Shown here: one piece after another, positions 36,096 to 58,385 of the stretch | How the letters are laid out: every line of letters begins with the position of its first letter | Position numbering within the stretch: the first letter of the stretch is position 1 | Assembly (NCBI RefSeq): GCF_019704315.1 | Contig: NZ_AP024597.1 | Location: forward strand, 310,001-374,000 | Reading direction: 5' to 3' | From: Stygiolobus caldivivus | Lineage (GTDB): Archaea > Thermoproteota > Thermoprotei_A > Sulfolobales > Sulfolobaceae | DNA: 64,000 bases | Notes under the pieces: model-generated | What the model saw: only the letters and a program-made list of their open reading frames with translations | Told to the model about the DNA's origin: nothing | Databases searched by the model: none | Translations under genes and position numbers: made by a program

Positions 36096-36608
36096 TCACC
36101 CTCTTATAGTAGCATAAATTGCAAATAATTCTGTTATTATTATTCCAGATACTAAAATTGTTAATTGATCAAGACCTATAGTAAAATTGAGTAATAGGCC
36201 CACTAAGACAATAATAGCAAAACTAATACCTAATGATAGACCGAATTTGCTCAGATTGTTAAGTTCACCTATATCGTCTTTATAGAGCGAGAGAAGTAAA
36301 GAATATCCGGGTAGGAACGTAATATACGGAAAACCTATTAGCATACGAATGATCATGAAAGAGTCGGATGGATATAGTAGAGTTAGAAGAAGTAATACTG
36401 ATAAAATGTGGACCATTACTAGACTGAATTTAAAACCACCTTTGGTCTTATAGTTCTCTCTTATTATTTTTATTGCTTCTTCCTTAGAATAACCTTGTTT
36501 AATAAGTTCCTCAACTGCCTCTTCCACCGTCAATCCTATAAGCTCTTTGGTTATACTTTGAGTCATTACTATAAGCGAGTTGTTTAGATGGTATATAATC
36601 TTTTCCAA
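36096..36608 (-). CDS. DUF1616-like membrane protein, N-terminal half only
   Basis: A cytoplasmic helical start (EEAVEELIKQGYSKEEAIKI, similar to a UBA-like or SHOCT-like helical module) leads to four hydrophobic segments. They carry IIRMLIGFPYITFLPGYSLLLSLYKDD, the DUF1616 signature, and NLSKFGLSLGISFAIIVLVGLLLNF. Complete DUF1616 proteins continue with an extracytoplasmic beta domain, which is missing here and found in the gene upstream (36842-37513). ATG at 36566 (MTQSITKE) is an alternative start. DUF1616 genes often stand near surface-polysaccharide loci; the function is unknown. Confidence 0.65.
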   Translation of the reverse strand: MEKIIYHLNNSLIVMTQSITKELIGLTVEEAVEELIKQGYSKEEAIKIIRENYKTKGGFKFSLVMVHILSVLLLLTLLYPSDSFMIIRMLIGFPYITFLPGYSLLLSLYKDDIGELNNLSKFGLSLGISFAIIVLVGLLLNFTIGLDQLTILVSGIIITELFAIYATIRG

Positions 36609-36841
36609 AACAATATGTCGCCAATATAAAAATGTAGATAAACTATATAGACAATATAATTTAAAATTATATTAGACCTACATAAATATCATTACTTAAC
36701 ATCCGTTTTATGTGAAAAAACCTTATAATACTGCGTTTAAATCTCTCTTATATTAATATCCTTTCTAGTAATTTACTTAATATTAGTTATTTTGAAGAAA
36801 TCTGGTAGTTACCTTATATTCTTATAATTCCTATTTTCAAT

Positions 36842-37513
36842 TTATAAAGACACATTAACTAGTAATTGTGTGAATACTCCAGTATACCTAAAAGAAGATG
36901 AAGAGATATCATAATAGTATAGAAAGAACTGAACCTTATACTGTCCTTGATCCTTTATGGAAAAAGGTATCAATTGCTCCCATTCACCTTTATATTGGAC
37001 AATATTATAGTATGTGCCTATAGTAATATTGCTCGATGAGTTAACAAGGTAAACCTTAATCATGAATAACTCTGGTTTTCCCTCATAATTTTTTACCAAA
37101 ACAATTACACTCGTATTTTCTCCCGGAATCAGACTCGTAGGATAGTTTCCTAGCGAGCCTTGAGCATTAAGTAGTAACATGATGGGGAATTGCTCTTTAG
37201 GCTGTACTTGGAGTACATAATACCCAAATGAGAAAAGACCGGCTAAAATTATCAGTCCTAGAAAAATACCGAGAAACATACTTGTATTACTATTCTTTTT
37301 AACGGACATAATTTTAGATCTTTTGTGGATGGAATACCATAAATTATTGTAAAAGTTTGTTATTTTATCTCTATATATAAGCACTACCATAGCGAAAATA
37401 GGCGGGATTAAGAACACTAAGTAGAAAAAATCATGGATAAGTTGGTATTGATGCTCATAAGCATAATATACTTCTTTATACTGTTGTATTAACTGCTGTA
37501 GATTTTGCTCCAT
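36842..37513 (-). CDS. Membrane protein carrying the DUF1616 C-terminal extracytoplasmic domain
   Basis: There are two membrane segments (about 28-47 and 79-101) with a basic loop between them. A beta-rich domain of about 115 residues follows. IMLLLNAQGSLGNYPTSLIPGENTSVIVLVKNYEGKPELFMIKVYL is the pattern of the C-terminal half of DUF1616 proteins. It overlaps the upstream GT2 gene by 38 bp and is separated by 233 bp from the gene with the matching N-terminal half. The two may work as one split unit, interacting with the glycan outside the membrane. Confidence 0.6.
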   Translation of the reverse strand: MEQNLQQLIQQYKEVYYAYEHQYQLIHDFFYLVFLIPPIFAMVVLIYRDKITNFYNNLWYSIHKRSKIMSVKKNSNTSMFLGIFLGLIILAGLFSFGYYVLQVQPKEQFPIMLLLNAQGSLGNYPTSLIPGENTSVIVLVKNYEGKPELFMIKVYLVNSSSNITIGTYYNIVQYKGEWEQLIPFSIKDQGQYKVQFFLYYYDISSSSFRYTGVFTQLLVNVSL

Positions 37514-42333: not shown

Positions 42334-43440
42334 ATGAAAGTAGCATTATTCGCTTATGCTGGAGTAGATAGGAGTTGGAGTCTAGGTAGACTTACATACT
42401 TATTTTATACCGGACTTAATAGCCTCGGAGTAGATACATATTTGGTTTCCAAATACAATATAAACCAATCTGGGTTAAAATATATTAAGATAAAAAGATA
42501 TCCCAAAATAGGTAAAAAAGACATTCTCACTGATGTATTTTCTACGTATTCTACGGTAAAGAAACTTAAACCCAACGTTTATCATCTACTATATCCTCAT
42601 GTATCATCACTCCTTTCATTACCTTTCCCTTCATCTTACTCCAAAGTTCTTACAATTCATGATCTGAAACCATTAATAGTCAAAGAATTTCTTGATAGAA
42701 AAGAAAAAACAAATATATCAATTTTGAAGTTTTCGCTAATGTTTATCGATAGAGTAATAGCTATTTCTCGCTCAACAAAAGAGCAAATAGTTCAACTCCT
42801 AGGGGTTGATGAAGATAAAGTAAGCGTAGTTTACAACCCTTTAGATCCTATTTTTAGAAAATTAAACGAAGACGAAATAGTTGATATAAGACAAAAATAT
42901 GGTAAATTTATCTTTAATCTCTCCCGCTTTGATAAGCTAAAAAATCCAGTAAACTTGATTAAATCATTTAAATATATAGCTTCTTGTGATGATAACATAA
43001 GACTTCTTATCGTAGGCGCTTTCTGGCACTACGGTAAAAGTTTAATTGAGAACGAATTAGGTAAATATAAGGATAGAGTGGATATAATAGAGAGAATTGA
43101 AAATGAGACCTTGGTAAAAATATATAATGCAAGTGAAGCATTTCTATTTCCTTCAATTTATGAAGGATTTGGTATGCCTATAATCGAAGCCATGGCATGC
43201 GGAACACCAGTAATAACTTCTAATAGATGGTCTATGAAAGAGCTGGCTGAGGGGGTAGGAGAGTTAGTCGAACCCGAAGACCCTGTAGACATCGCTGAGA
43301 AGACATGTAAAGTAATTAGTGATAAGGGCTATCGTGATCAGCTGGTGAAGAAAGGACTGGAAAAGGCTAAACAGTTTAACTATTTGGATCTTTCGAAAGA
43401 ACTTTTAAATGTATACGAGATAACGGTAGGTAAAAAATAA
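42334..43440 (+). CDS. Glycosyltransferase, GT4 (GT-B fold)
   Basis: It has 368 residues. The N-terminal half has KVALFAYAGVDRSWSLGRLTYLFY and VLTIHDLKPLIVKEF. The donor half has FIFNLSRFDKLKNPVNLIKSF and EGFGMPIIEAMACGTPVITSN with E-x7-E, close to the mannosyl- or rhamnosyl-type GT4 enzymes. TTTTTATAAGTTAC near 42295-42308 is a probable TATA box. The TAA shares its last base with the ATG of the flippase gene (TAATG), so translation is coupled. Confidence 0.88.
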   Translation: MKVALFAYAGVDRSWSLGRLTYLFYTGLNSLGVDTYLVSKYNINQSGLKYIKIKRYPKIGKKDILTDVFSTYSTVKKLKPNVYHLLYPHVSSLLSLPFPSSYSKVLTIHDLKPLIVKEFLDRKEKTNISILKFSLMFIDRVIAISRSTKEQIVQLLGVDEDKVSVVYNPLDPIFRKLNEDEIVDIRQKYGKFIFNLSRFDKLKNPVNLIKSFKYIASCDDNIRLLIVGAFWHYGKSLIENELGKYKDRVDIIERIENETLVKIYNASEAFLFPSIYEGFGMPIIEAMACGTPVITSNRWSMKELAEGVGELVEPEDPVDIAEKTCKVISDKGYRDQLVKKGLEKAKQFNYLDLSKELLNVYEITVGKK

Positions 43441-44966
43441 TGTCAGATGAATTAGAGAAATTTGGGAAGAATCTCCTCAATAACTATGTAAACTTATTGC
43501 AAGGTAGGTTCATTTCTCACGCGATAGGTGCTATAGGTAGCTTCCTTGTTATAAGGATATTACAGCCCCAACTTTACGGGGAACTCTCTATAGCGATGAG
43601 CTTCGTATACTTATTAAACATTGTAGGTAATTTGGGCGTGAATACTGCAGTTACTAAGTTTGTAGCTAAGTATAAGGTGGAGAGAATAGAGAATGCATAT
43701 AAGGTCATATCTTCTGGAATGCTTTTTGACATAATATTCGGAGCAAGTTTATCGTTAATTGCATACTTCATATCCCCTTTATTTTTATTATATGTTTACA
43801 ACAAGCCTGAAGTAATTCCATACGCCAAGTTTGCTAGTCTGTATCTGATCTTCTATTGGTCTTTTAGCTCTGTATTCTCAGGGCTTTTAGGATTAGAACT
43901 TACTAAAGATAATAGTAAACTGTGGATAATACATTATTCATCACAAACATTTTTCAGTATAAGCCTAGCTCTAATCTGGGATAAAATATATGGGGTAATA
44001 TTAGGTTATGCTTTAGGATACGGCGCTGCCACAATTTACGGAGTTTTTCTGCTCATAAAACACCGCGTTTTAAACAGAACCACATTACCCTCTTTACTGT
44101 TTATAAAGGAAATGATAAAGTTTGGATTGCCTTTAATAGTGCCGTCGATTCTAAGCAACGTAGGAGGTGCCTACACAAATTCCATAATAAATCGTTTTTT
44201 AAGTATTATAGAACTGTCGAATATTAATGCAACTTCAAAAATAGGATATGTATTTGACACAATACTTAACCCTCTAAGTTATGCCATACAACCTATCTTA
44301 GCCAAAATAGATTACTCTCAAAGAGAAAGAATGGTAAACGTAATTAATGAACTTACTAAAGTAAACAGCATATCTCAAATTCCTTTAGTGTTTTTTGTAA
44401 TAGGATTCTCGTACTCCATAATTGATATAATAGCGGGGCCCTCTTATACTTTAGCACCTCGTTACTTACAATTTTCTATGATATCACCTATTATTACCAC
44501 ACTTGTAGGTTTTCCTATACTAAATTCTGTCATACTATTTAGAGGAGATTCCAAGACAGTGTCTAAAATATCGTCCATAAATACTGTCTTCTATGCGATT
44601 TTATTAAGTGTTCTAATACCTTTATTAGGACCACTAGGATATTTTTTAAGTAGTTGGATTAGTTGGATTCCAGGCTATATTGTGGCGCTAATAAATGTAA
44701 AATCACTCTATCCTAATTATAAATTTCCCATTGGGACTATTTCGAGGATATACTTAATTCCGTCATTACTTTTCCTACCTTTTGTATTCATTCCTGTTCA
44801 TTTGCCTTACTTGATCGTGGTCGGGTTAGGACTACTCTTTATTAATTATAAACTGTACTATAAAATAGGCCTTATCAGTAAAGGTGAAGCAAAACTATTA
44901 ATCACAAGCATAGATAATTCTGGGCTCAGAGTAATTTCACCTTTAGTTAAGTTCATTCTATCCTAA
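43440..44966 (+). CDS. Wzx-like oligosaccharide flippase (MATE/MVF superfamily)
   Basis: The 508-residue polytopic protein with about 14 hydrophobic segments begins FGKNLLNNYVNLLQGRFISHAIGAIGSFLVIRILQPQLYGELSIAMSF-like, the classical polysaccharide-exporter start with a conserved LxPxxYG turn (RILQPQLYG). Such proteins turn lipid-linked glycans from the cytoplasmic to the outer face. It is coupled to the GT4 gene in front. It is the only flippase in the island, so it probably serves the glycan made by the surrounding transferases. The 3' end overlaps the opposing GT4 by 9 bp. Confidence 0.85.
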   Translation: MSDELEKFGKNLLNNYVNLLQGRFISHAIGAIGSFLVIRILQPQLYGELSIAMSFVYLLNIVGNLGVNTAVTKFVAKYKVERIENAYKVISSGMLFDIIFGASLSLIAYFISPLFLLYVYNKPEVIPYAKFASLYLIFYWSFSSVFSGLLGLELTKDNSKLWIIHYSSQTFFSISLALIWDKIYGVILGYALGYGAATIYGVFLLIKHRVLNRTTLPSLLFIKEMIKFGLPLIVPSILSNVGGAYTNSIINRFLSIIELSNINATSKIGYVFDTILNPLSYAIQPILAKIDYSQRERMVNVINELTKVNSISQIPLVFFVIGFSYSIIDIIAGPSYTLAPRYLQFSMISPIITTLVGFPILNSVILFRGDSKTVSKISSINTVFYAILLSVLIPLLGPLGYFLSSWISWIPGYIVALINVKSLYPNYKFPIGTISRIYLIPSLLFLPFVFIPVHLPYLIVVGLGLLFINYKLYYKIGLISKGEAKLLITSIDNSGLRVISPLVKFILS

Positions 44967-46293: not shown

Positions 46294-47205
46294 ATGGATG
46301 AAATAACAATAGTTATTATCAATTATAATGGCCTTGAACTATTAAAAAAATATTTGCGTTCCGTTCTAGACACAGATTATCCGAATAAAGAAGTGGTAGT
46401 AGTAGACAACGGATCTAAGGATGGTAGCGTAGAATATTTAAAAAGCCTAGGTGTAAGGGTAATCCCTCTCGATAAGAATTATGGACCAGCGTATGCTAGA
46501 AATGTAGCGATTAAAACATTTAAGACAAAATATATGGCTTTTTTAGACAATGACGTATATACTCCAAAAGACTGGTTATTACCATTATATGAGGTCATTT
46601 CTAGTGATGAAAGAGTAGCTGCATGCCAGAGCCTATATACAGACTGGCCCTACGGAGAAGAACCCAGAGAAATACCGTGGTTCTCTACTGCAGCAGCTCT
46701 AACCAGGAGGGATTACATAGAAAAAGTAGGAGGTTTTGATGATTACTTGTTCTTTTATTGGGAAGACGCAGATTTGTCATGGAGATTGTACAGGGCTGGA
46801 TACAAAGTTCTTATGGTACCTAAATCAAAAGTGCTTCATGAAGTTCACGGCACTTTCAAAAAACTTCCATCGCCTTTTACATCATACCTTTTAATGAGAA
46901 ACCAATTATTGTTACTCCTCTCTTACTATAACACTGAAGAGTTACTCACACTATTTCCTTTTATCCTAACTGCTCGATTTATATCCGCCTTTAGACCCCC
47001 AAACCGAAAAGCTAAGTTAAAAGGTATCTTTTCTGCCCTGGCTAATATTAACTATGTAATAAATAAGAGAAAACAGATTAGGGAAATAGAAAAGGTAAAA
47101 GAAAACACTTTCCTTAATCTATTGGGAGACGAAATCTTTGGATATCCAGAGATGAAATCTATTAGAGAAGCCATATCTAAAAGAGTAGTGCAAAGAATTA
47201 GGTAA
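46294..47205 (+). CDS. Glycosyltransferase family 2 (rhamnosyltransferase-like)
   Basis: It is a soluble GT-A protein of 303 residues: TIVIINYNGLELLKKYLRSVL, VVVDNGSKDGSVEYLK, NYGPAYARNVAIK, the metal motif FLDNDVYTPKDW, and FYWEDADLSWRLYRAGYKV. This arrangement is close to dTDP-rhamnosyl-type GT2 enzymes, although the donor is not proven. It is followed 6 bp later by another GT2 with the same plan, and the two look like diverged tandem relatives. TATA-like AAACTTATTTATTA lies near 46249-46262. Confidence 0.86.
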   Translation: MDEITIVIINYNGLELLKKYLRSVLDTDYPNKEVVVVDNGSKDGSVEYLKSLGVRVIPLDKNYGPAYARNVAIKTFKTKYMAFLDNDVYTPKDWLLPLYEVISSDERVAACQSLYTDWPYGEEPREIPWFSTAAALTRRDYIEKVGGFDDYLFFYWEDADLSWRLYRAGYKVLMVPKSKVLHEVHGTFKKLPSPFTSYLLMRNQLLLLLSYYNTEELLTLFPFILTARFISAFRPPNRKAKLKGIFSALANINYVINKRKQIREIEKVKENTFLNLLGDEIFGYPEMKSIREAISKRVVQRIR

Positions 47206-47211
47206 TAGAAT

Positions 47212-48153
47212 ATGGTATCACTAAGTATTATAGTTGTAAACGTAAAAGGAAAAGATAAATTTCCCAAGCTATACGAGTCGTTATTAAAATCCAGGTTTAA
47301 GGACTTTGAAGTGATAGTGATTGACATCATCGATAACGGCTTTAATGACATTAGATTTAGGAATGTAAAAATAGAAAAAGATAGAGGACTAGCATATTGT
47401 AGAAATATCGGAGTAAAATATTCAATGGGTAAATTCTTATTATTTCTAGATAATGACACAGAAATAATGCCAGATACACTAGAAAAGTTTATGTCGTATA
47501 TATCTGAGAGACCTAATGAAATAGTACAGTTAAAATTAGTGAGAGAAGACGGTACTTTAGACGCTACCGGGGGGCTGATAGATAATTTAGCCTATCCTCA
47601 TGAACTCAACAGAGGATTAAGTGAAAATAGCGTAAACGAGATAATCGAAGTGCTATACGCTAAAGGCGCTGCGATAGGAATGAGCAGAGATGTATTCAAT
47701 TTAGTTGGTGGATACGACGAGGAATACTTCTACGGTTATGATGAAACAGATCTTTGCTTTAGGGCATGGAAAAGAGGTATAAGAGTCGTCTTTTACCCCT
47801 TCGCAAAAGTAATTCACCACGAGCACGGATCTTTTTCTTTAGATGAAAAGAAAAGATTATATAGGCTAACATACTTCTTGGAAAGCAGAAGAATCTATTT
47901 TTTTCTAAAGAATTTTTCTTCGGCATACGTTATTAAGAATTATCCTAAGCTGGCCATCGTTTTTGTTGGCAGTATATTTTTAGACATCTTGAAAAGAAAA
48001 GATCCAATAGCAGCTAAGGCAAAGATAAAGGCATCAATATGGGTCTTATCTAGGATCCCTCTGCTAATCAAGAAAAGATTATCGGAAAGGCCTAGTAAGG
48101 TTATATACGACGAGAGCTACCTAATAAGTAAGGGGCTAATTAAAAAACATTAA
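47212..48153 (+). CDS. Glycosyltransferase family 2
   Basis: It has GT-A motifs LSIIVVNVKGKDKFPKLYESL, DRGLAYCRNIGVKYS, FLDNDTEIMPDTL and FYGYDETDLCFRAWKRGIRVVF. The usual NDGSxD loop is short and altered (IDIIDNGFNDI), which may change donor binding. The 313 residues have no strong membrane segment. It is coupled to the GT2 in front (6-bp gap) with the same general plan, so both may act in sequence on one glycan. Confidence 0.84.
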   Translation: MVSLSIIVVNVKGKDKFPKLYESLLKSRFKDFEVIVIDIIDNGFNDIRFRNVKIEKDRGLAYCRNIGVKYSMGKFLLFLDNDTEIMPDTLEKFMSYISERPNEIVQLKLVREDGTLDATGGLIDNLAYPHELNRGLSENSVNEIIEVLYAKGAAIGMSRDVFNLVGGYDEEYFYGYDETDLCFRAWKRGIRVVFYPFAKVIHHEHGSFSLDEKKRLYRLTYFLESRRIYFFLKNFSSAYVIKNYPKLAIVFVGSIFLDILKRKDPIAAKAKIKASIWVLSRIPLLIKKRLSERPSKVIYDESYLISKGLIKKH

Positions 48154-48358
48154 AATGATATCTGTTGTCTTCCTAAATGACAGTTCTGGCTATAGGAAAT
48201 AGCATATAATAGAGTCCTGTAGTTCTTTATATTTTTAGCGTACTAACCCAATATATCTCCCGCGTGAATCTGTTTATTCTAAATTACTAATAAAGAGCAT
48301 CTAATTTAGATCTTAGTCAGAATCAAATTAATAGCTGATTATTGTTAATTAGTTAGTA

Positions 48359-49351
48359 ATGCAAATAATGATATCCGTAATAACAGTAGATTTTAGAAGA
48401 CAGAAATACATAATAGATGCAGTCACTTCAGCATTAAACCAGACTTTAAACAGATCAGAATATGAAATAATAGTAGCTAAGGCCTATAATAATGACTATA
48501 TAGATAAGTTCCTTGAAGAAAATGGAGTAATATCAGTAACTGAAGTTAAACCATTAAATAGATCGTTTATAGCGAAGGCCATAGACATAGCTAAAGGTGA
48601 AATTTTATGCTTTCTGGACGACGATGATCTTTTCTTGAGCGAAAAGTTGGAAACTGTACTTAATTACTTTAGTAAGTATGAAAATCTAGGCTATATTAAG
48701 CACGCAAATTACGGATTTATAAATAATGATATCCCTACTCGGATTCCAAAGGAAAAGAATTACAATGAAATATATATTAAAAATTGTGAGAAAAAGAAGA
48801 AATTTACAGAACTTATGAGATATCAACCAGACGGAAATAGCAGTTCAATTTGCATAAGAAGAGATGCTATAACTAAATACTCTAATCTACTTCGTGAGAT
48901 TAACTACGGAATCGATTCATTTTATTTCTACTCTGCTTTAGCCTCTGAATATGATTTATTGGTTACACCCAAAATTCTTGCACTCAGAAGATATCATTCT
49001 GAGAATACTACGGCTATTTTCCCTACAGATTTTGAATCATGGCTTGAGAAAAGAAAGAAATTCGTGCAAGGCTATATTAGTTCCCTAGAAATAATAAGAA
49101 AGAAAATAGCCGATCAGAAACCTTTCTCAGACTATTTAGCTAGGCAAATTTCACTGCATAGGATATACCTGAGTATGTTACCTGGATCTGAAGTTAAGCC
49201 TAAGTTTGTGGATTATATAGAATGGATAAAGATGTATAAAAAAGATATAAAGGGGTGGATTGCAGCTCTCGTTACAATAAGTTCGGAGAATATTAAAATG
49301 AAATATATTATGAGACAATACGAGAAAGAGTTAAGAAGTGTAAATAGTTAA
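48359..49351 (+). CDS. Glycosyltransferase family 2 (GT-A), divergent
   Basis: The N-terminal half is a GT-A domain: ISVITVDFRRQKYIIDAVTSAL, EYEIIVAKAYNNDYIDKFL, and the acidic motif CFLDDDDLFLSEKLETVL. A conserved-looking YQPDGNSSSICIRRDAI segment follows. The C-terminal 100 residues are helical (LEKRKKFVQGYISSLEIIRKKIADQ) and may bind partners. ATG 48359 is used here; ATG 48368 (MISVIT) is also possible. Its donor is unknown. Confidence 0.8.
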   Translation: MQIMISVITVDFRRQKYIIDAVTSALNQTLNRSEYEIIVAKAYNNDYIDKFLEENGVISVTEVKPLNRSFIAKAIDIAKGEILCFLDDDDLFLSEKLETVLNYFSKYENLGYIKHANYGFINNDIPTRIPKEKNYNEIYIKNCEKKKKFTELMRYQPDGNSSSICIRRDAITKYSNLLREINYGIDSFYFYSALASEYDLLVTPKILALRRYHSENTTAIFPTDFESWLEKRKKFVQGYISSLEIIRKKIADQKPFSDYLARQISLHRIYLSMLPGSEVKPKFVDYIEWIKMYKKDIKGWIAALVTISSENIKMKYIMRQYEKELRSVNS

Positions 49352-49440
49352 TCTTTTTCAGAATCTATCTACAATGTTAATAGTCTTGCTTTAGGCAGAA
49401 AATATTTTAAAATGTATTTTTATTGAACTACTAGATAGGA

Positions 49441-50487
49441 TTGCAAAAAATACGGTTTATAATGATGGACAGTATCTACCCCCAAAGGGGAGGTATACAT
49501 GAGCAAGTTTACTTAAACTTAAGAGAATTACAAAGAAGAAATATAGATGCAAAAATAATATCTTACTCTGAAAGGAGAGCTGAAGAGCCAGGGAAAAAGC
49601 TACTATGGCTCAGACAACTCTCTCCGTTCTTTTTAAAGAAGATAATTAAGGAGGATCCTAATATTATAATCTCAGAGACTGCATGGCCTATTCTTCCAAG
49701 CCTTATATCATCAAAACTTTCCGGAGCCAAATGTATATTACACCTTCACTCGTTAGAATCTATACAAGATGTAGGTTTGACTAAAATAGGAAAAAGAATT
49801 ATAAGGATTTTTGAAGGTCTTTCAAAAAAATGCGATGCAATTCTAGTACCTTCGAAAGTAGAGTTAAATCTATTGAGAGGACAGGGTATAGATAAAGAGA
49901 AAATTTTCGTTTATCCTAACGTAATTGACGTTGAAGCCTTTAACTCCTATAAACCGGCCCAATTAAATCACCCTGCTGTAGTATTCGTAGGGGGAATGGG
50001 TTATCCGCCTAATAGAGAAGCAGCACAAATGATTACTAAGATAGCCGAAATTGTTAATAGAAAATTGAATGGTAAGAATAAAGTTAACTTTTATCTAGTA
50101 GGACCTTCTCCTCCACCCGTCTCTCCTCCGGTATACGCTACAGGCTATGTGGAGTCCACTGTACCGTATATACTAGGGGCCGATATTTGCGTAGCGCCAA
50201 TAAAGAGAGGCGGAGGAGTAAAGTTGAAAGTCTTGGAGTACATGGCTTCAGGTAAGCCTATAATAGCAACGAAGAAGGCTATAGAAGGTATTGATGATAT
50301 TTGTTATGTTAATGCGGAAACAGAGGAAGAGTTTGCTGAAAAGATAATTAGTATTATTAATGACGATAACGAGATTGAGAGGTTTAAAGCTAATAAAGAA
50401 ATAGTTGCTAAGAACCACTCTCCTAAAACAGCTATAGATTTACTCCTTAAAATAATAGATGATCTCAATAGGGGCAAGCTACGCTAA
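49441..50487 (+). CDS. Glycosyltransferase, GT4-like (GT-B fold)
   Basis: A TTG start gives 348 residues. RFIMMDSIYPQRGGIHEQVYLNLREL is the acceptor loop and AVVFVGGMGYPPNREAAQMI opens the donor half. RGGGVKLKVLEYMASGKPIIATKKA is the donor-site element, with Lys-Leu-Lys as in the GT4 subgroup carrying GGG(V/I)KxK. SETAWPILPSLISSKLSG in the N-terminal half is another family feature. The next in-frame ATG (residue 7) would be an alternative start. Confidence 0.83.
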   Translation: MQKIRFIMMDSIYPQRGGIHEQVYLNLRELQRRNIDAKIISYSERRAEEPGKKLLWLRQLSPFFLKKIIKEDPNIIISETAWPILPSLISSKLSGAKCILHLHSLESIQDVGLTKIGKRIIRIFEGLSKKCDAILVPSKVELNLLRGQGIDKEKIFVYPNVIDVEAFNSYKPAQLNHPAVVFVGGMGYPPNREAAQMITKIAEIVNRKLNGKNKVNFYLVGPSPPPVSPPVYATGYVESTVPYILGADICVAPIKRGGGVKLKVLEYMASGKPIIATKKAIEGIDDICYVNAETEEEFAEKIISIINDDNEIERFKANKEIVAKNHSPKTAIDLLLKIIDDLNRGKLR

Positions 50488-50854: not shown

Positions 50855-51799
50855 ATGTCAACAGAAAATAGCAATAACAACATAGTAGGAAAGGAAATTA
50901 AAAAAGAGAATATAAATGATCTAGTAACTGTAGTTTTATGCACTTTAAATGAGGAGGAAGCAATCGGTAAAGTTATTGACGACTTAAAGAAGGAAGGGTT
51001 TAATAACATATTAGTTATTGACGGTTACTCGACTGATAAAACTGCTGAAATAGCTGAGTCTAAAGGCGCTAGAGTTATCTATCAGCACTGGGAGGGTAAG
51101 ACGGGTGCAGTTAAGACGGCACTCGATTATGTGGATACACCTTTTGTAGCATTTCTTGACGCTGATGGCAGTTATCCTCCTTCGGAACTTCATAAATTAC
51201 TAGCACATGCACAGAAACACGTAGAAGTAATTGGAAAAAGGTCAGAAAAGAATATATCATTTATTCATAGAATAGGGAATAGAATAATAAATAGACTATT
51301 CCAATTCTTATTCTCAGCTGATGTAGGAGATGTTTTATCAGGAATGTATGTTCTGAACACTAATATAGCTAAGACATTAAGCCTAAGTTCAAAGAGATTC
51401 GAAGTGGAAGTAGAAATAGCTTCACAGATGGTAAGAAAAGGTAAGGTAACCTACGTACCAATAAGATATGAAAAGAGGATAGGTAAATCAAAGTTAAACG
51501 GGTTCAAAGACGGATTAAAGATAGTACTACATATGCTGAAGTTGGCATGGATTTATAATCCGTTTTTAGTATACTCACTAATAATTTCTCTACTTATAAT
51601 ACCAGGTTTAGCCACTATGGGATATGTTATGCTAGAGTATATGTTACGCGGGATTTTCCACAGTGGATATGCTCTAATGGGCGTAATGTTTATCCTTCTT
51701 GGAATAAATGGATTCTTTATGGCGGGACTTGCATCTCAGCTTAATAAAATACAGATTGAAATAGAGAATAAATACCATAAAAATAGTAGTAATATATAA
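50855..51799 (+). CDS. Dolichyl-phosphate-sugar synthase-like GT2 with two membrane segments
   Basis: The GT-A domain resembles DPM1-type enzymes: VTVVLCTLNEEEAIGKVIDDL, LVIDGYSTDKTAEIA, HWEGKTGAVKTALDY, and FLDADGSYPPSELHKLL. A VGDVLSGMYVLN stretch and KRIGKSKLNGFKDGLKIV, typical of polyprenol-phosphate hexose synthases, follow. Two C-terminal membrane segments (about 232-258 and 268-292) anchor it. It probably loads a sugar onto dolichyl phosphate, giving the donor a GT-C enzyme would use outside the membrane, such as the one at 34143. Which sugar is not visible. Confidence 0.84.
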   Translation: MSTENSNNNIVGKEIKKENINDLVTVVLCTLNEEEAIGKVIDDLKKEGFNNILVIDGYSTDKTAEIAESKGARVIYQHWEGKTGAVKTALDYVDTPFVAFLDADGSYPPSELHKLLAHAQKHVEVIGKRSEKNISFIHRIGNRIINRLFQFLFSADVGDVLSGMYVLNTNIAKTLSLSSKRFEVEVEIASQMVRKGKVTYVPIRYEKRIGKSKLNGFKDGLKIVLHMLKLAWIYNPFLVYSLIISLLIIPGLATMGYVMLEYMLRGIFHSGYALMGVMFILLGINGFFMAGLASQLNKIQIEIENKYHKNSSNI

Positions 51800-52380
51800 T
51801 ATATTTTTAAGCCTTATATTTTATATTCACTTATATAATAATTAAAACTTTTAAAGTTATACCATCAGAACAGAAAAAATCTCTTCAAAAGAAAAATTTA
51901 AAATTTATTAAGATTAATATTTTCTTACAATTCAGTAAAAAATCTGCGTATATAAGTTTTCATCTAACGCTAGAATGTGGACATAATGTCATCATTAGGG
52001 TATAAATTTATTAATTAATGAAAGCCTCTATAGAGAGAAGATGCTAAGAAAAGGTTTTATATGTCCTAATGTGAATATAGAATATAAACACCATAGTGAT
52101 GACACTACGATGAAGTTAATTTATAAATAAACACATAATAAGATTATATGTATTGCAAGTGGCATTTTACGCAAAATCATCACGTCTGATATGTTTTACT
52201 GTCATAGATATTTGATACTATACACTTCATGATCAAGACTTGAAACTCTAAAAAATTTAACATAAAATAGGTATAAGTACGACCATAAGTGTTTAGGGTA
52301 ATATATAACCACCAGGGTTTTCAATAAATGGTATTGCGGAGTACTACTATTAATCATATATATAGAAGTTATTAGACTTT
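51800..52380. other. Intergenic AT-rich region
   Basis: All six frames are heavily interrupted. A GTGATGA near 52096 has no matching CTGA at box C/D spacing, so I do not call an sRNA. It leads into the decayed TnpB element. Confidence 0.3.
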
Positions 52381-52385
52381 CTCAT

Positions 52386-52402
52386 CGCTCTAAATAGAGG
52401 CG
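52386..52402. repeat. Hairpin at the end of the decayed IS605-type element
   Basis: CGCTCTA-AA-TAGAGGCG forms a near-perfect stem just beyond the 3' end of the tnpB remnant. Terminal hairpins are recognised ends in IS200/IS605 elements, so this may mark the old right end. Confidence 0.4.
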
Positions 52403-52412
52403 GTTTCCCTCA

Positions 52413-53236
52413 TTAATTCGGGCTAACATTTCTCATCTGAGGGCAGTCTAGAAGCTCAGAGAACCTCCTTTCACTCAAGTTCATGACAGCGATAACGTCC
52501 CTATCATTCTCGTAACTGCATTAACACGGAAAACCGATGACGAGAAACTTCCCTCATCATCCTCTTAGGACATTTTCCTTGAAGGCCTCAGGCTAAAGAC
52601 TTCCGCTCATAAACCTCATCGAGACGCTTAGAGATCCAAACATAATGGGAATCATCTTTACCCACTACGACTTCATTCGTGTTTATGTGCATGACTACAC
52701 ACCCTTTCGGCTCAACTTTCTCTCTCTCCTCCTCAAAAGTGACCTTGAGGAAAGCACACCCGTCCTTGATGACTAGTCTACCTCCTTCATCTTCCAGCCC
52801 AAGTGCTCCTTAAGGTTCACCGGGTAGCCTAGGATTAGGAGTTCACCGACACCAGCAATCCTAGCACTCGTCCCCTCTAAGTCCACGTTATAACTTAACC
52901 TAGATGTTAGCCAGATTTACGTTTTATACACTCTAGGGAAACCGACCTCTTCTCGGGTTTATTATACCAACCCTTGTAGATTGATAATACATCACGATAA
53001 CAGTCCTCAGCTATCTTTGAAGGAAGCTTGTACTCACTCCTTAACTCGTAGTATAACTCCTCGTGGACTTTTCCGATAACTCAGCTCATATTAGGGTCCT
53101 TAACGTTCTCTCTCAACCAAAATAAGACCCACCTTAACGCTTTCACATAGTTATTAACAAGTACTAGGAGGGAGTCTGATAAACCAATCTTCATAGAAAC
53201 TGTGGCTCTGATTAGTTTTTCCCCTCCTAGCCATTG
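52413..53236 (-). pseudogene. Decayed IS605/IS1341-type tnpB
   Basis: On the minus strand the N-terminal part reads [19 protein letters not shown], then [19 protein letters not shown], then (after a TGA) IGKVHEELYYELRSEYKLPS and KIAEDCYRDVLSIYKGWYN. These are clear marks of archaeal TnpB, an RNA-guided nuclease encoded by these elements. Later, in other frames, come GVGELLILGYPVNLKEHLGW, VTFEEEREKVEPKGCVVMHI and, after a large internal loss of the RuvC core, [14 protein letters not shown]. There are several stops and frameshifts and at least one deletion. No tnpA remnant was found upstream, so it was probably a tnpB-only element. Confidence 0.8.
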
Positions 53237-53450
53237 AATTATCGTTAGAAAAAAGGCGTATTTAAATGTTCATCATCCTAGCCCTAAAAAGGCGAGACTT
53301 TTTTTATATAAGGTAATTTAACGTCCGACCGTATAACATACAGCAGCTATCATAACTCATTCGTTCTTGACGCACATTAGCACAGATTCAGTTCTTTAAA
53401 CTTCTTCGCAGCTATCACAAAAATTACTATGACTATTAAATATATAGTAG

Positions 53451-54221
53451 TTAAGTTACGAGCTTTCTTATTGATTCAATATAATTATCTATTGTACCTA
53501 AATCGTAAACTATATCTACTTTTATTGCCTTAAACTTCTTACCTTTTCTTATTAGACCTTTTATGCCGTCAGTCAGTTGGAGTTCATCATTATACTTAAC
53601 TTGTTTTAATTCACCAAAGATATCCTTGTCAAAAATATAGTACGGAACTATAACTAAATTAGATTTGGGTTCCTTTGGCTTTTCTTCAACATCGATAACA
53701 AATCCTTCATCATCAACAACTACTACACCATAAGGTCTTGGATCCCGGACAGTGGTAACTAAAAATGAATTAACAACCATAGAAGATATAGGTATTGTAG
53801 ATAGAATAGTATCCGCAGCAACTACTAGAAATTCTCCCTGGACGAAGGGTTCTGCCCTTAACACCGCGTCACCAAAACCTCTAGGTTCTGGCTGGTTAAC
53901 AAAGGCTATTCTACTATCCTCTATTTTCCGATAAAATTGCCTTAAGTAATCTGCTTGGTTTACCTTACCCTTAGATTCGAGATAATTAATAAAGTCGTAG
54001 TCAGGCGTAAAGTGATCCTCAATAACTCTCTTACCTCTTCCGACTACTATTATGAAATCCCTTATTCCGATATCGTATAGTTGCTCAAAAATAATTTGAA
54101 TTATAGGCTTAAATTGCCCCTTAAAGGGAATAGGAAACATTTCCTTAGGAATTTCTTTAGATGCAGGAAGCAATCTAGTTCCAAGACCAGCTGCAGTAAT
54201 TACTGCATGAATATTAATCAC
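53451..54221 (-). CDS. galU: UTP-glucose-1-phosphate uridylyltransferase
   Basis: The signature AVITAAGLGTRLLPASKEIP near the N-terminus with Lys26 (KEMFPI) is that of nucleotidylyltransferases of the GalU type. VNQPEPRGFGDAVLRAEPF and VVAADTIL follow, and VDVEEKPKEPKS is typical of GalU. It makes UDP-glucose from UTP and glucose 1-phosphate and releases PPi. The 256-residue length is on the short side for GalU but normal for archaeal forms. It overlaps the Ugd gene by 8 bp and is the last gene of the UDP-sugar operon. Confidence 0.87.
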   Translation of the reverse strand: MINIHAVITAAGLGTRLLPASKEIPKEMFPIPFKGQFKPIIQIIFEQLYDIGIRDFIIVVGRGKRVIEDHFTPDYDFINYLESKGKVNQADYLRQFYRKIEDSRIAFVNQPEPRGFGDAVLRAEPFVQGEFLVVAADTILSTIPISSMVVNSFLVTTVRDPRPYGVVVVDDEGFVIDVEEKPKEPKSNLVIVPYYIFDKDIFGELKQVKYNDELQLTDGIKGLIRKGKKFKAIKVDIVYDLGTIDNYIESIRKLVT

Positions 54222-55443
54222 CCCTATATAGTCCTATTGCCCTGAACTTCTTTCTTGACATCTTGTTGGGGTCAAGGACTCTTCTTCCATCTAGCACAGC
54301 CTTATCTTGAAGCATTTGTTCTATTCCTCTGAACTCCTCCCACTCTGTAGCTATTATCACGCCATCTGCCACCTTTACACACTCTTCTTTACTGCCCACC
54401 ATTTTTACTAAAGATGTTTTAGCCTTGGGATCGTATGCCAAGACATTTGCCCCCTCATCAGACAATAGTTTAGCGATTTTTAGTCCTACACTTTCCCTAG
54501 TATCATCCGTATTGGGCTTAAAAGCAATGCCTAAAATACAGACTGTTTTACTATTAAGACCACCTAATAGCTCTTTCATTATCTTTACTGCCCTTTTAGG
54601 CCTTTCTTCGTTAACTTTTATAGTAGCTTCTATAATCTTTAACTCCTCTCCCAGCTCTCTAGCAAATGACACAAAGGCTAGAGTATCCTTGGGAAAACAT
54701 GAACCCCCGTAACCTAAGCCAGCATTTAAGAAATAAGGGGCTATCCTCTTATCTAGTCCTATAGCCTTAGCAATAGTATTGACATCACAGTTGGGTATCA
54801 CCTCACATAGGTTTGCAATTTCATTGATAAATGAAATTTTAGTCGCTAAGAAAGAGTTAGCAGCGTACTTGATCATTTCAGCTTCTTCAATGGAAGTCCT
54901 TAAAACAGTACTCTTTGTAAATGACCATAAGTTCTCGATCATATCTCCTGAGGCTTTATTGTCGCTCCCGATCACTATTCTGTCTGGCTTGGCGGTGTCT
55001 ACCACAGCGTTTCCTTCCCTTAGAAACTCCGGGTTAGACACTACTTCCCTTTCTACTATCTGTTTTACTTTTCTACTTGTACCGGGGACTACAGTACTTT
55101 TAACGACTACAATAGTATCTCTCTTAAGATAAGGTTTCATAGCCTTAGCAGCGTCTAAGACATAACCTATATAGTTTTTCCCTTCTACAGTAGGGGTGGC
55201 AACTGTAATAAAAACAACGTCCGCCTCCTTTAACATTGAATAATCCGTGGTAAATGTAAATCTCTCTTTATTTTTTTGGAGAAGTTCGTCTAAACCTGGT
55301 TCATAGATGGGGGAACGATTACACTGCAGACCTTTAACCTTATTTTGGTCGATGTCAACTCCGACTATTTCATGCCCTTGATCTGCTAGCACTGCGCCCG
55401 TAACTAATCCTACAACACCTAAGCCCACAATACCTATCTTCAT
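54214..55443 (-). CDS. ugd: UDP-glucose 6-dehydrogenase
   Basis: It oxidises UDP-glucose to UDP-glucuronate with two NAD+. The N-terminal NAD-binding motif is GIVGLGVVGLVTGAVLADQGH. SPIYEPGLDELL, VVVKSTVVPGT and NPEFLREGNAV are family blocks. The catalytic Cys249 lies in GYGGSCFPKD, and the C-terminal domain has LGIAFKPNTDDTRES. At 409 residues it is normal in length. ATG overlaps the UXS stop (4 bp), so the three UDP-sugar genes are translated together. Confidence 0.93.
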   Translation of the reverse strand: MKIGIVGLGVVGLVTGAVLADQGHEIVGVDIDQNKVKGLQCNRSPIYEPGLDELLQKNKERFTFTTDYSMLKEADVVFITVATPTVEGKNYIGYVLDAAKAMKPYLKRDTIVVVKSTVVPGTSRKVKQIVEREVVSNPEFLREGNAVVDTAKPDRIVIGSDNKASGDMIENLWSFTKSTVLRTSIEEAEMIKYAANSFLATKISFINEIANLCEVIPNCDVNTIAKAIGLDKRIAPYFLNAGLGYGGSCFPKDTLAFVSFARELGEELKIIEATIKVNEERPKRAVKIMKELLGGLNSKTVCILGIAFKPNTDDTRESVGLKIAKLLSDEGANVLAYDPKAKTSLVKMVGSKEECVKVADGVIIATEWEEFRGIEQMLQDKAVLDGRRVLDPNKMSRKKFRAIGLYRGD

Positions 55444-56366
55444 TGTAATACACCCTTAAACCAGTTAATAGTAAGTTTTAACCCTTCCTCGAGAGATACT
55501 TGTGGATACCAGTCTAGTTTCTCTTTAGCCCTAGTTATATCTGCCGCTCTTCTAGGTGGATCATCGGGTCTAGGGGGAAGGAATTTTATTTTGGATTTAC
55601 TATCGGTGAGCTTTATTATCATTTTAGCTAAATCAACGATTTTTGTTTCTTTGTCGGAACCTATATTAAATACTTCTCCTGCTAATTCGTCTTTGTATAT
55701 TAACTTTTTTGTAGCCTCAACCCAGTCTGATATATATAGAAATGCTCTGGTTTGATTTCCATCTCCGAACACTGTCAGATCCTCTCCTTTCAGTGCTTGG
55801 TAAATAAACCTTGAAACTACTCTACCATATGTTCCATCTTCTCTAAGGCCGGGGCCGTACACGTTAAAAGGCCTCTGAATTCTTGTATCCAGCTTATATT
55901 GCCTATAGTAGGCCATTATCAAGGCTTCTGAGAACCTCTTACTCTCGTCGTAACAACTCCTTATACCTATCGGATTTACATAACCCCAATAGGTCTCTGG
56001 AGTCGGAATTATCGAAGCGGAACCATATACTTCAGATGAAGAAGTATAAACAAACCTTGCGTTACTCTTTCTCGCTATTTCGAGCATTCTATAAGTACCT
56101 AAAGAGTTTGACAAGGCCGTATCTACTGGATGCTGTATATAGTCTTCTGGTGAGGGTCTAGCAGCTAAATGAATAACAATATCGTACTTTTTATCTGTAT
56201 CAAATTCTTCAACTTTTTTCTTAATAAATTCTACATCCCTTCGTATGTCAAAATATTTCGCGGTTGATAGATCATCAACTATTGTTATTTCTTCTCCTTC
56301 TTCCAATAATGCTTTTGTCAGATGAAAACCTAAGAATCCTGCTCCTCCACTTATAAGTATTTTCAT
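55440..56366 (-). CDS. UDP-glucuronate decarboxylase-like SDR (UDP-xylose synthase)
   Basis: This is an extended SDR with SGGAGFLGFHL (NAD site), a TSSSEVYG loop, the YWGYVNPIGIRSCYDESKR block (catalytic Tyr-x3-Lys in YDESK) and IQRPFNVYGPGLREDG, RVVSRFIYQALKGEDLTVFGDG. That set is the pattern of UXS/ArnA-type decarboxylases more than of GalE. The Glu after the Ser run and the Arg in RPFNVYGP match residues used in decarboxylation. It would convert UDP-glucuronate to UDP-xylose (or the 4-keto-pentose). I use ATG 56366 because a TTG two codons upstream is less likely and TATA is 28 bp away. Confidence 0.8.
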   Translation of the reverse strand: MKILISGGAGFLGFHLTKALLEEGEEITIVDDLSTAKYFDIRRDVEFIKKKVEEFDTDKKYDIVIHLAARPSPEDYIQHPVDTALSNSLGTYRMLEIARKSNARFVYTSSSEVYGSASIIPTPETYWGYVNPIGIRSCYDESKRFSEALIMAYYRQYKLDTRIQRPFNVYGPGLREDGTYGRVVSRFIYQALKGEDLTVFGDGNQTRAFLYISDWVEATKKLIYKDELAGEVFNIGSDKETKIVDLAKMIIKLTDSKSKIKFLPPRPDDPPRRAADITRAKEKLDWYPQVSLEEGLKLTINWFKGVLQ

Positions 56367-56390
56367 TAACAATTTCTATCTTTGACAAAA

Positions 56391-56398
56391 TATAAACC
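56391..56398 (-). promoter_or_regulatory. TATA box of the UXS-ugd-galU operon
   Basis: GGTTTATA on the minus strand lies about 28 bp before the ATG at 56366, fitting a leaderless transcript. It is 45 bp from the IS6-type insertion, so the operon keeps its own promoter. Confidence 0.5.
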
Positions 56399-56434
56399 TA
56401 TCTGGTTGTAAAATTGGAGCGTACACTTTTCAAT

Positions 56435-56442
56435 GTTCAAAT
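56435..56442. repeat. Left target-site duplication (8 bp)
   Basis: GTTCAAAT immediately outside the left inverted repeat, repeated exactly at 57308-57315. An 8-bp duplication is usual for IS6-family transposition. Confidence 0.85.
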
Positions 56443-56475
56443 GAGAGTGGACAACAATTTAGTTAATCTGAAATA
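56443..56475. repeat. Left terminal inverted repeat of the IS6-type element
   Basis: It matches the reverse complement of 57275-57307 at 28 of 33 positions, sharing TGG-CAACAATTT and TTAAT-TGAAATA cores. Confidence 0.85.
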
Positions 56476-56554
56476 AATTATATTAAATGTCATTTCTCTA
56501 TTTAAAGATACAAGAAAAACTCCCTTTAAAGAAGAGCTACGTAATACTTTTTTA

Positions 56555-56622
56555 GGGTGAGCACGGGAGTAATACTTGAGGTGAGAACATGGGGACTAGG
56601 TGGAAAGTCCCCGTGCTCACCC
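56555..56622 (+). promoter_or_regulatory. Competing hairpins around the transposase start
   Basis: GGGTGAGCACGGG (56555-56567) is the exact reverse complement of CCCGTGCTCACCC (56610-56622). Between them lie the ribosome site GAGGTGAG and the ATG at 56589. A second stem, GGGGACT (56591-56597) with AGTCCCC (56606-56612), uses part of the same 3' arm. RNA copies could hide the start in one fold, limiting transposase made from read-through transcripts. This is inference from structure only. Confidence 0.5.
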
Positions 56623-57287
56623 AAATAACCCTAATGGGGTATATTAACCTTAACCCGAGGTTTTACCCGAGAGAAACAATAGCTCACGCCCTTGCCGAGT
56701 ACTTAGCAGGGCTCTCCTCATGGAGGACACACCTACCCCACTCAACACTGCTCTACTATTTCAGGAGGTTGAGCTACGTGAAGTACGTCGTCCCCTTGAG
56801 CGGGGGATACGCCATTGACGAGACTGAGGTGAGGGCTGTAAAGGGCGAATACTACTACGTGTGGGTGGTTAGGGACGTTAATACCAAGGCTATACCCTTC
56901 TTCATGGTCACCAGCTTGAGGAGCGGTGTACACGTACTCGTTGTGCTCGCAAGCATGGGTGGGGTCGAAGAGGAGGCGAGGAGGGTATTTAACGTGAGGG
57001 TCGACAAGGTCGTCTACCTGCACGACGGTGCTACAGTATATAACGCTTTCTCGTGGCTTAATGTGGAGCACAAGAGGGTGAAGTTCGGGGAAAGGGATTA
57101 TGCGGAGCAGGGGTTCAGGAGTTTGAAGCATAGGTTGTCGCCCATGGACTCCCACTTCCCTTGGGACGCGAGTAAGTACACGTTGGTGAGGTGGTTGTCT
57201 GTGTTTTTCCTGGTGTATAATGTGCTTTACGCTCCTGTGTATTTGTTAGGCAAGGGGGTGATGATAAATGTAAATATTTCAAATTAA
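56589..57287 (+). CDS. IS6-family transposase
   Basis: The 232-residue DDE transposase carries YAIDETEVRAVKGEYYYVWVV with Asp77, then VVYLHDGATVYNAF with Asp146, then GERDYAEQGFRSLKHRLSPM with Glu173 as candidate catalytic triad. The N-terminus (TRWKVPVLTQ through HSTLLYYFRR) forms the helix-turn-helix DNA-binding part. It moves the surrounding element, usually by replicative cointegration. GAGGTGAG precedes the ATG. The final codons run into the right inverted repeat. The spacing of the second Asp and Glu is shorter than in bacterial IS6. Confidence 0.88.
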   Translation: MGTRWKVPVLTQITLMGYINLNPRFYPRETIAHALAEYLAGLSSWRTHLPHSTLLYYFRRLSYVKYVVPLSGGYAIDETEVRAVKGEYYYVWVVRDVNTKAIPFFMVTSLRSGVHVLVVLASMGGVEEEARRVFNVRVDKVVYLHDGATVYNAFSWLNVEHKRVKFGERDYAEQGFRSLKHRLSPMDSHFPWDASKYTLVRWLSVFFLVYNVLYAPVYLLGKGVMINVNISN

Positions 57288-57307
57288 TGAAATTGTTGAC
57301 CACACTC
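57275..57307. repeat. Right terminal inverted repeat of the IS6-type element
   Basis: Partner of 56443-56475. Its inner part contains the TAA stop of the transposase gene. Confidence 0.85.
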
Positions 57308-57315
57308 GTTCAAAT
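57308..57315. repeat. Right target-site duplication (8 bp)
   Basis: GTTCAAAT immediately outside the right inverted repeat, identical to 56435-56442. Confidence 0.85.
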
Positions 57316-57350
57316 TGTGAGATGGAAAAAGAAGACGAAGTTTTAAACTA

Positions 57351-58385
57351 CTATTTATGCATGATGCTTTCTTGTGGGATTATCACATGCTGTCTGTACA
57401 TTTCTAAGTCACTAATGATCTTCTGCCTAACTTTTGCAGAGAATAAATCCAGCATATAATATCTGTAAGGAACTTCTATGTGAGGAGCGGTGTATATATC
57501 TATAGTCATATTTAAGGTATTAGCGAGTTTTTTAGCTGTCACATAGGCTTCTTTAATCTTCTTAGGTGACGCTAGAGGTTTATTAAGCGTTTTCCTTACA
57601 TATTCTTTAATGTAATTAGAGTAATAAAATAATGGAAGAAATTTCTTAAACTTTGAGTTGGATTTCATTAAGAATAGAAACATAGATGTTATAATGAATT
57701 TATCGCTTAAATCTATTGGAGTATTTGCTCTGCCTTTATGATACCCAGTTTCGATGGGGTAGTATTTTACTGTATAACCGTTAGCATACAGTTCTAACCC
57801 TAGTACGTTAGAATCAAAATATAAAAGAGGAACTTCTCTAAATATGAATCCTCTCTTTCGTGGAAAATCTGCCCTTATTATCATCATAGCTCCAGTTACG
57901 TATGTAACATATGATTCCTTATAGGGATCCTTAACTAAGTGCAGCCTAATTACGGCTCCGTTATCTGCTATAAATCGTCCTGTATCAATTCTATTCTTAT
58001 CTGTTCTAATAATGCCTTGTGCCGCACCTACGTTAGGATCTCTTTCCATTAACTCGACTAAATTCCTCGCCATGTCGCTATTAGGAACAGCGTCTGGGTT
58101 AACAGTTATGAAATATTTTGATTCATTAGAAGAGTATCTAAACGCTAAATTATTCCCGCCGTTAAAATAGGTGTTTTTTTCAGATCTTATTAATTTAAAC
58201 CTATTATCCCCATTTATGAAACCAGATAATATCTTGTAAGTATTGTCCTTAGAAGCGTTATCAACTAAAATTACTTCGTAATCAGGGTAATCTAAGTTTT
58301 TTAGAGCTTTAAGATGTTCAAGAAGAAGATCGCCCTCTTTTTCAGAGTTATAATATACGACGAAAATCGAAATCTTAGGGTGCAT
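57351..58385 (-). CDS. Glycosyltransferase family 2 (rhamnosyltransferase-like)
   Basis: GT-A domain: KISIFVVYYNSEKEGDLLLEHL, VILVDNASKDNTYKIL, TYFNGGNNLAFRYSS, and the metal motif ITVNPDAVPNSDM (NPD type, as in rhamnosyl-type GT2). The later acidic motif is weak (LYFDSNVLGLELYANGYTV). The 344 residues have no membrane segment. A TATA-like element ACCTTAAAATAGG lies about 25 bp before the start. Only about 110 bp of native DNA separated this gene from the UDP-sugar operon before the IS element landed in between, so they may once have been co-transcribed. Confidence 0.83.
   Translation of the reverse strand: MHPKISIFVVYYNSEKEGDLLLEHLKALKNLDYPDYEVILVDNASKDNTYKILSGFINGDNRFKLIRSEKNTYFNGGNNLAFRYSSNESKYFITVNPDAVPNSDMARNLVELMERDPNVGAAQGIIRTDKNRIDTGRFIADNGAVIRLHLVKDPYKESYVTYVTGAMMIIRADFPRKRGFIFREVPLLYFDSNVLGLELYANGYTVKYYPIETGYHKGRANTPIDLSDKFIITSMFLFLMKSNSKFKKFLPLFYYSNYIKEYVRKTLNKPLASPKKIKEAYVTAKKLANTLNMTIDIYTAPHIEVPYRYYMLDLFSAKVRQKIISDLEMYRQHVIIPQESIMHK

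Follow-up and report, generated by a model that had tools for sequence, protein, structure and literature searches.

The 64,000-nucleotide window of the Stygiolobus caldivivus genome analysed here carries an insertion sequence between a glycosyltransferase gene, GT2x, and three genes, UXS, ugd and galU, whose predicted product is UDP-xylose (Table 1). Did the element cut one operon in two, and which sugar, for which use, would the genes beside it supply? The preliminary description read the locus as a larger transcript that the insertion had broken, with the glycosyltransferase using a UDP-sugar from the pathway. We consider it quite likely that UXS-ugd-galU is instead a self-contained, laterally exchanged UDP-xylose cassette with its own promoter, and that the IS6-group element was inserted later, between two units.

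Table 1. Features of the locus, in window coordinates; enzyme names are predictions.
Feature	Position	Strand	Basis or remark
galU, UTP-glucose-1-phosphate uridylyltransferase, 256 aa	53451..54221	-	GalU 154 bits
DNA-level homology block with the cassette of genome G015, 82.8%	53465..56415	-	promoter and three genes, nothing outside
ugd, UDP-glucose 6-dehydrogenase, 409 aa	54214..55443	-	TuaD 378 bits
UXS, UDP-glucuronate decarboxylase / UDP-xylose synthase, 308 aa	55440..56366	-	sequence, tree, fold, residues
Cassette core promoter, BRE/TATA-like, spanning -35 to -24 relative to the UXS ATG	56390..56401	-	position-conserved
Target-site duplication, left copy GTTCAAAT	56435..56442		8/8 identical to right copy
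Insertion sequence, archaeal IS6 group	56443..57307	+	ISC774-type transposase; size and TIR near ISSto2
Transposase, 232 aa, intact ORF	56589..57287	+	NF033588; E..F...K.R motif
Target-site duplication, right copy GTTCAAAT	57308..57315		8/8 identical to left copy
T5 run just past the GT2x stop, possible terminator	57326..57330	-	sequence
GT2x, family 2 glycosyltransferase, 344 aa	57351..58385	-	PF00535 E 6.5e-24

The element, whose type, place and coordinates had been described correctly, is intact, measures 865 bp and has terminal inverted repeats that agree at 29 of 36 positions. Its transposase passes the NCBIfam model for ISC774-type IS6 transposases (E 8e-90, 299.6 bits; cut-off 200), matches the generic IS6 model weakly, and has an E..F...K.R motif that reads EQGFRSLKHR. 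The arrangement is not a product of chance, because a perfect 8-bp duplication abuts an inverted repeat that encloses a transposase ORF. According to the accessible part of PMC6807381, ISSto2/ISC774 is similar in its length (853 bp for ISSto2), its long inverted repeat (33/34), the size of its transposase (237 aa) and the E..F...K.R and W...F motifs therein, a likeness taken from a published table of sizes and motifs rather than from a letter-by-letter comparison of sequences. In contrast, the target duplication recorded there for ISSto2 is 5 bp long, and the same text doubts that the archaeal elements belong to IS6 proper. The genome has a second full-length copy, 91% identical in DNA, as well as four short matches to the element's ends. 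The left and right ends also stand about 200 bp apart at G000:C1:1566549-1566751, possibly a MITE of this insertion sequence. The element itself is an ordinary insertion of little importance.

GT2x, UXS, ugd and galU are all open frames, and the two gene junctions within the cassette are overlaps of 4 and 8 bp. UXS could start at a TTG at 56372; the ATG used here agrees better with the promoter and with the relatives. Without the element and one copy of the repeat, the GT2x stop and the UXS start would be 111 bp apart on the same strand, close to the first estimate of about 110 bp, and this short spacer favours the view that GT2x-UXS-ugd-galU was once a single operon, split by the element, with GT2x a transferase that uses UDP-xylose. 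The promoter argues against it. When all 12 cassettes were aligned at their ATG (GTG in G009), positions -35 to -33 proved A-rich in every one and a T/A box occupied -29 to -24, bearing out the TATA box ascribed earlier to the three genes; in a retest on nine non-redundant sequences of the 12, one of each near pair having been dropped, the box exceeded every one of 5000 shuffles and likewise every one of 5000 circular shifts. A BRE/TATA about 30 bp before the start codon is spaced as expected for archaeal promoters of leaderless transcripts. Because the position of the box is conserved in 12/12 cassettes, the three genes most likely already formed a separate transcription unit when the element arrived.

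In the closest cassette, that of G015, the same box stands with no element and behind a different upstream gene. The T5 run begins about 20 bp past the GT2x stop, ahead of the insertion point; archaeal transcription terminates at T-runs, and such a run is weak evidence of a terminator in AT-rich DNA. Together, the box in G015 and the run after GT2x place the element, most likely, between two transcription units, and speak against the claim that the insertion cut a larger transcript. We thus rejected operon disruption as the main reading, since cassettes without an element keep the box and the stretch of DNA shared with G015 stops short of the insertion site.

The insertion might matter in another way, by having removed an upstream control site or by bringing sequence that drives or represses the cassette. 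It lies at -76 from the UXS ATG, outside the promoter box and about 40 bp or less from the BRE/TATA. However, the transposase gene is directed away from UXS, nothing of the core promoter is missing, and the DNA homology with G015 stops at -49, before the insertion point, so that we know of no conserved upstream site that the insertion removed. We judge such an effect very unlikely. An upstream activator site or read-through may nevertheless have been lost, the genomes compared, one per species, including no element-free strain of this species. In the order of events that we favour, the element would have entered the spacer upstream of an existing cassette promoter, between two transcription units, making the 8-bp duplication as it did so; it probably cut no operon, and expression of the cassette probably continued.

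Among the sequences of solved structures, that of human UXS1 matched UXS best (250 bits), followed by the next kind, a UDP-glucose 4-epimerase (171 bits). In a tree of 39 rows, with 11 of the 19 SDR loci L018-L036 as the outgroup, all UXS rows and human UXS1 formed a clade of 27 rows (support 100/99), with every GalE-like and dehydratase row outside it. The structure model of UXS (pLDDT 88.7) had human UXS (2b69) as its first fold match (TM 0.92). Residues E112, Y139, K143, R136, R273, N168 and S111 were invariant in 26/26 rows of an alignment built from every other cassette locus but that of G009, whose UXS is split near the 3' end (10 of 11), a single G054 locus, and 14 of 23 loci from a wider contig scan for UXS relatives, which returned no Sulfolobaceae; Y76 was present in at least 90%. 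A GalE structure (4zrm) has neither the Glu nor the equivalent of Arg273.

The accessible part of a 2025 structural paper (PMC12820599) lists Glu120, Tyr147, Lys151, Arg144, Arg277 and Asn176 as signature residues of human UXS. With human and archaeal positions matched by counting on the alignment, all six, as well as Tyr84 and Ser119, are retained here. Differences from human UXS1 (2b69, 4gll), to which identity is about 43%, are a Ser in place of Thr118, found also in the archaeal protein Mth373 according to the same text, and a Pro in place of Ala79. Mth373, a Methanothermobacter UDP-xylose synthase of solved structure, is an archaeal SDR assigned the same reaction; as described in that part of the paper, by which alone we compared it, it differs in having no Tyr84 and a Lys in place of Arg277, and the description mentions no UXS-ugd-galU cassette. 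From the best structural match, the human UXS1 clade and the signature residues, we predict that the SDR is a UDP-xylose synthase; a 4-epimerase or a dehydratase was ruled out by residues, tree and fold. The NCBIfam scan of the protein returned no UXS name above cut-off, the best named matches being other SDRs below cut-off, and the open literature searched yielded no relevant paper on a UDP-xylose synthase or UDP-glucuronate decarboxylase in Sulfolobales. Relatives with 50-57% identity occur at L055 (a Hydrogenothermaceae MAG), L057 and L075 (Thermococcales MAGs), and this presence in thermophilic bacteria and Thermococcales hints at exchange among thermophiles.

The final sugar would be other than xylose if the UXS-like enzyme released a UDP-4-keto-pentose, as ArnA does, or if a 4-epimerase encoded elsewhere made UDP-arabinose. 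In the accessible parts of the literature, UXS enzymes vary in their 4-keto release and a 4-epimerase step is often added to xylose pathways, and there are GalE-like SDRs elsewhere in this genome. Yet the protein belongs to the human UXS1 clade, ArnA-type chains scored below 85 bits against it (250 for human UXS1), and the cassette holds no epimerase or aminotransferase at any of the 11 other loci. We therefore regard a different end product as unlikely.

The two remaining genes are consistent with a route to UDP-xylose. For ugd, TuaD (378 bits) was ahead of AglM (355) and UDP-ManNAc dehydrogenase (190), and for galU, GalU (154 bits) was ahead of RmlA (102), all of these NCBIfam scores being below the equivalog cut-offs. 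AglM and AglF of Haloferax N-glycosylation, a UDP-glucose dehydrogenase and a uridylyltransferase, are of the same classes as ugd and galU (NF041297, 355 bits; NF041313, 120 bits; both below cut-off), although these halophile models score under TuaD and GalU. The complete operon from UDP-glucose to UDP-xylose proposed in the preliminary description is thus present as three open, overlapping genes of predicted activity. Their enzymes would convert glucose-1-phosphate to UDP-glucose, UDP-glucuronate and then UDP-xylose, which would feed a surface glycan built by the adjoining glycosyltransferase cluster.

UXS orthologues (69-91% identity) stand at 11 loci in 9 of the 30 other Sulfolobaceae genomes, with ugd and then galU following in the same order at 11/11, so that 10 of 31 Sulfolobaceae, including this one, bear the cassette. 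Two genomes (G024 and G028) have two cassettes each, and G007 retains decayed pieces of UXS, ugd and galU in cassette order (L110:10018-10986), the ugd piece being short and weak (E 0.027) and counted by its place alone. Co-occurrence of UXS and GT2x was scored in 31 Sulfolobaceae (own genome included) of 61 genomes searched, and that of ugd, GT2a and GT4 in 25 Sulfolobaceae of 41. Orthologues of ugd (E below 1e-100) were present in 7 of these 25 genomes, exactly the seven that hold UXS, and so it appears that Sulfolobaceae make UDP-glucuronate only in the presence of a UXS that can consume it.

The cassette of G015, which belongs to another genus, shares 91% (UXS), 89% (ugd) and 84% (galU) protein identity with the one here, whereas two core proteins of G015 are 73% and 55% identical to those of this genome. 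The congener G001, with 83% and 72% identity in the same two core proteins, has no cassette; the mean amino-acid identity of this species to its congener is 79.4% (PMC8483694). When G015 was held with its own genus, the tree was worse by 102 log-likelihood units and was rejected (AU p 2e-56; 15 rows, with the group chosen after the 39-row tree had been seen). The G015 cassette (L037) is also inverted relative to flanks that it has in common with G028 (L040), of the same genus. Judged from these sequences, the cassette has moved laterally between genera, because the tree rejects vertical descent, the identity exceeds that of core genes, and the DNA homology is limited to the promoter and the genes. 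Across the different genomes, cassettes are inverted, duplicated or decaying in place, and may be swapped.

Does GT2x, then, use the sugar? By profile comparison its nearest solved relatives were chondroitin synthase and a mixed set of GT2 enzymes, with the match confined to roughly its first 120 residues, and its structure model was poor (pLDDT 59.9). Orthologues were found in 5 of 31 Sulfolobaceae (this genome, G012, G007, G018 and, as a broken copy, G003), all five of which have the cassette or, in G007, its remains. The distance to the cassette varies: the two adjoin here, lie 4.2 kb apart in G003 and 26 kb apart in G012, and are on different contigs in G018, and in G007 an intact GT2x lies about 2 kb upstream of the remains on the same strand. 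This restriction to 5/5 genomes and the common order and strand in G003 and G007, 2-4 kb apart, count in favour of the single-operon reading. But none of the 11 other cassettes has GT2x beside it, 6 of the 9 other cassette-bearing genomes have no GT2x at all, and two further glycosyltransferases co-occur with the cassette at least as strongly. Hypergeometric values, uncorrected for relatedness, were 0.027 for GT2x, 0.0004 for GT2a (46294-47205) and 0.002 for GT4 (49441-50487) with intact cassettes only, and 0.0027, 0.001 and 0.00016, respectively, with the G007 remains counted; these remains were found after the first count, and both counts are reported. GT2a follows galU on the same strand in G003 and G012, with gaps of 96 and 130 bp.

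With the conserved promoter box, these results leave little room for one ancestral operon of all four genes. Since the cassette is mobile, its neighbour GT2x is a weak clue to its use, and since GT2a and GT4 co-occur with it as strongly or more so, GT2x as the user of the pathway's sugar is plausible but not favoured. The earlier proposal that the GT2 uses this UDP-sugar is thus weak, and GT2x becomes one of several candidate xylosyltransferases.

Further glycosyltransferase genes lie nearby in the window. A large glycan cluster (21846-51799) has 13 ORFs with Pfam matches of GT2 or GT4 type, some truncated, and includes four more glycosyltransferase-like ORFs at 46294-50487 (GT2a, GT2b, GT2c and GT4, labelled by eye), a flippase-like protein (43440-44966) and an AglJ-like transferase that scores below cut-off (50855-51799). 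At 36096-37513, one ORF matches the first part of DUF1616 and its neighbour the second, as if one gene had been split. Adjoining the 3' end of the cassette are 1.65 kb (51800-53450) with no ORF of at least 80 aa, whose pieces have 33 further matches in the same genome (67-94% identity), beside ordinary genes; this segment looks like a pile of dispersed-repeat remains.

Few archaeal glycans are known to contain pentoses. One, a heptasaccharide of Pyrococcus, has two (PMC2952790, in its accessible part), and xylose is not among the sugars that the accessible part of PMC9549778 names for the exopolysaccharide of S. acidocaldarius. Against this background, a mobile cassette is of modest interest and the insertion beside it of little weight; what is worth keeping is the portability of the cassette and the prediction, open to test, that the Sulfolobaceae bearing it have pentose in their glycans. 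Its presence would predict which members of the family carry xylose or a derived pentose, here 10 of 31 genomes. More tentatively, and with rather less confidence than in the cassette itself, we suggest that Sulfolobaceae may exchange a portable, promoter-carrying UDP-xylose module that alters the sugar alphabet of their surface glycans. Such switching of glycan type, if true, could affect recognition by viruses or kin.
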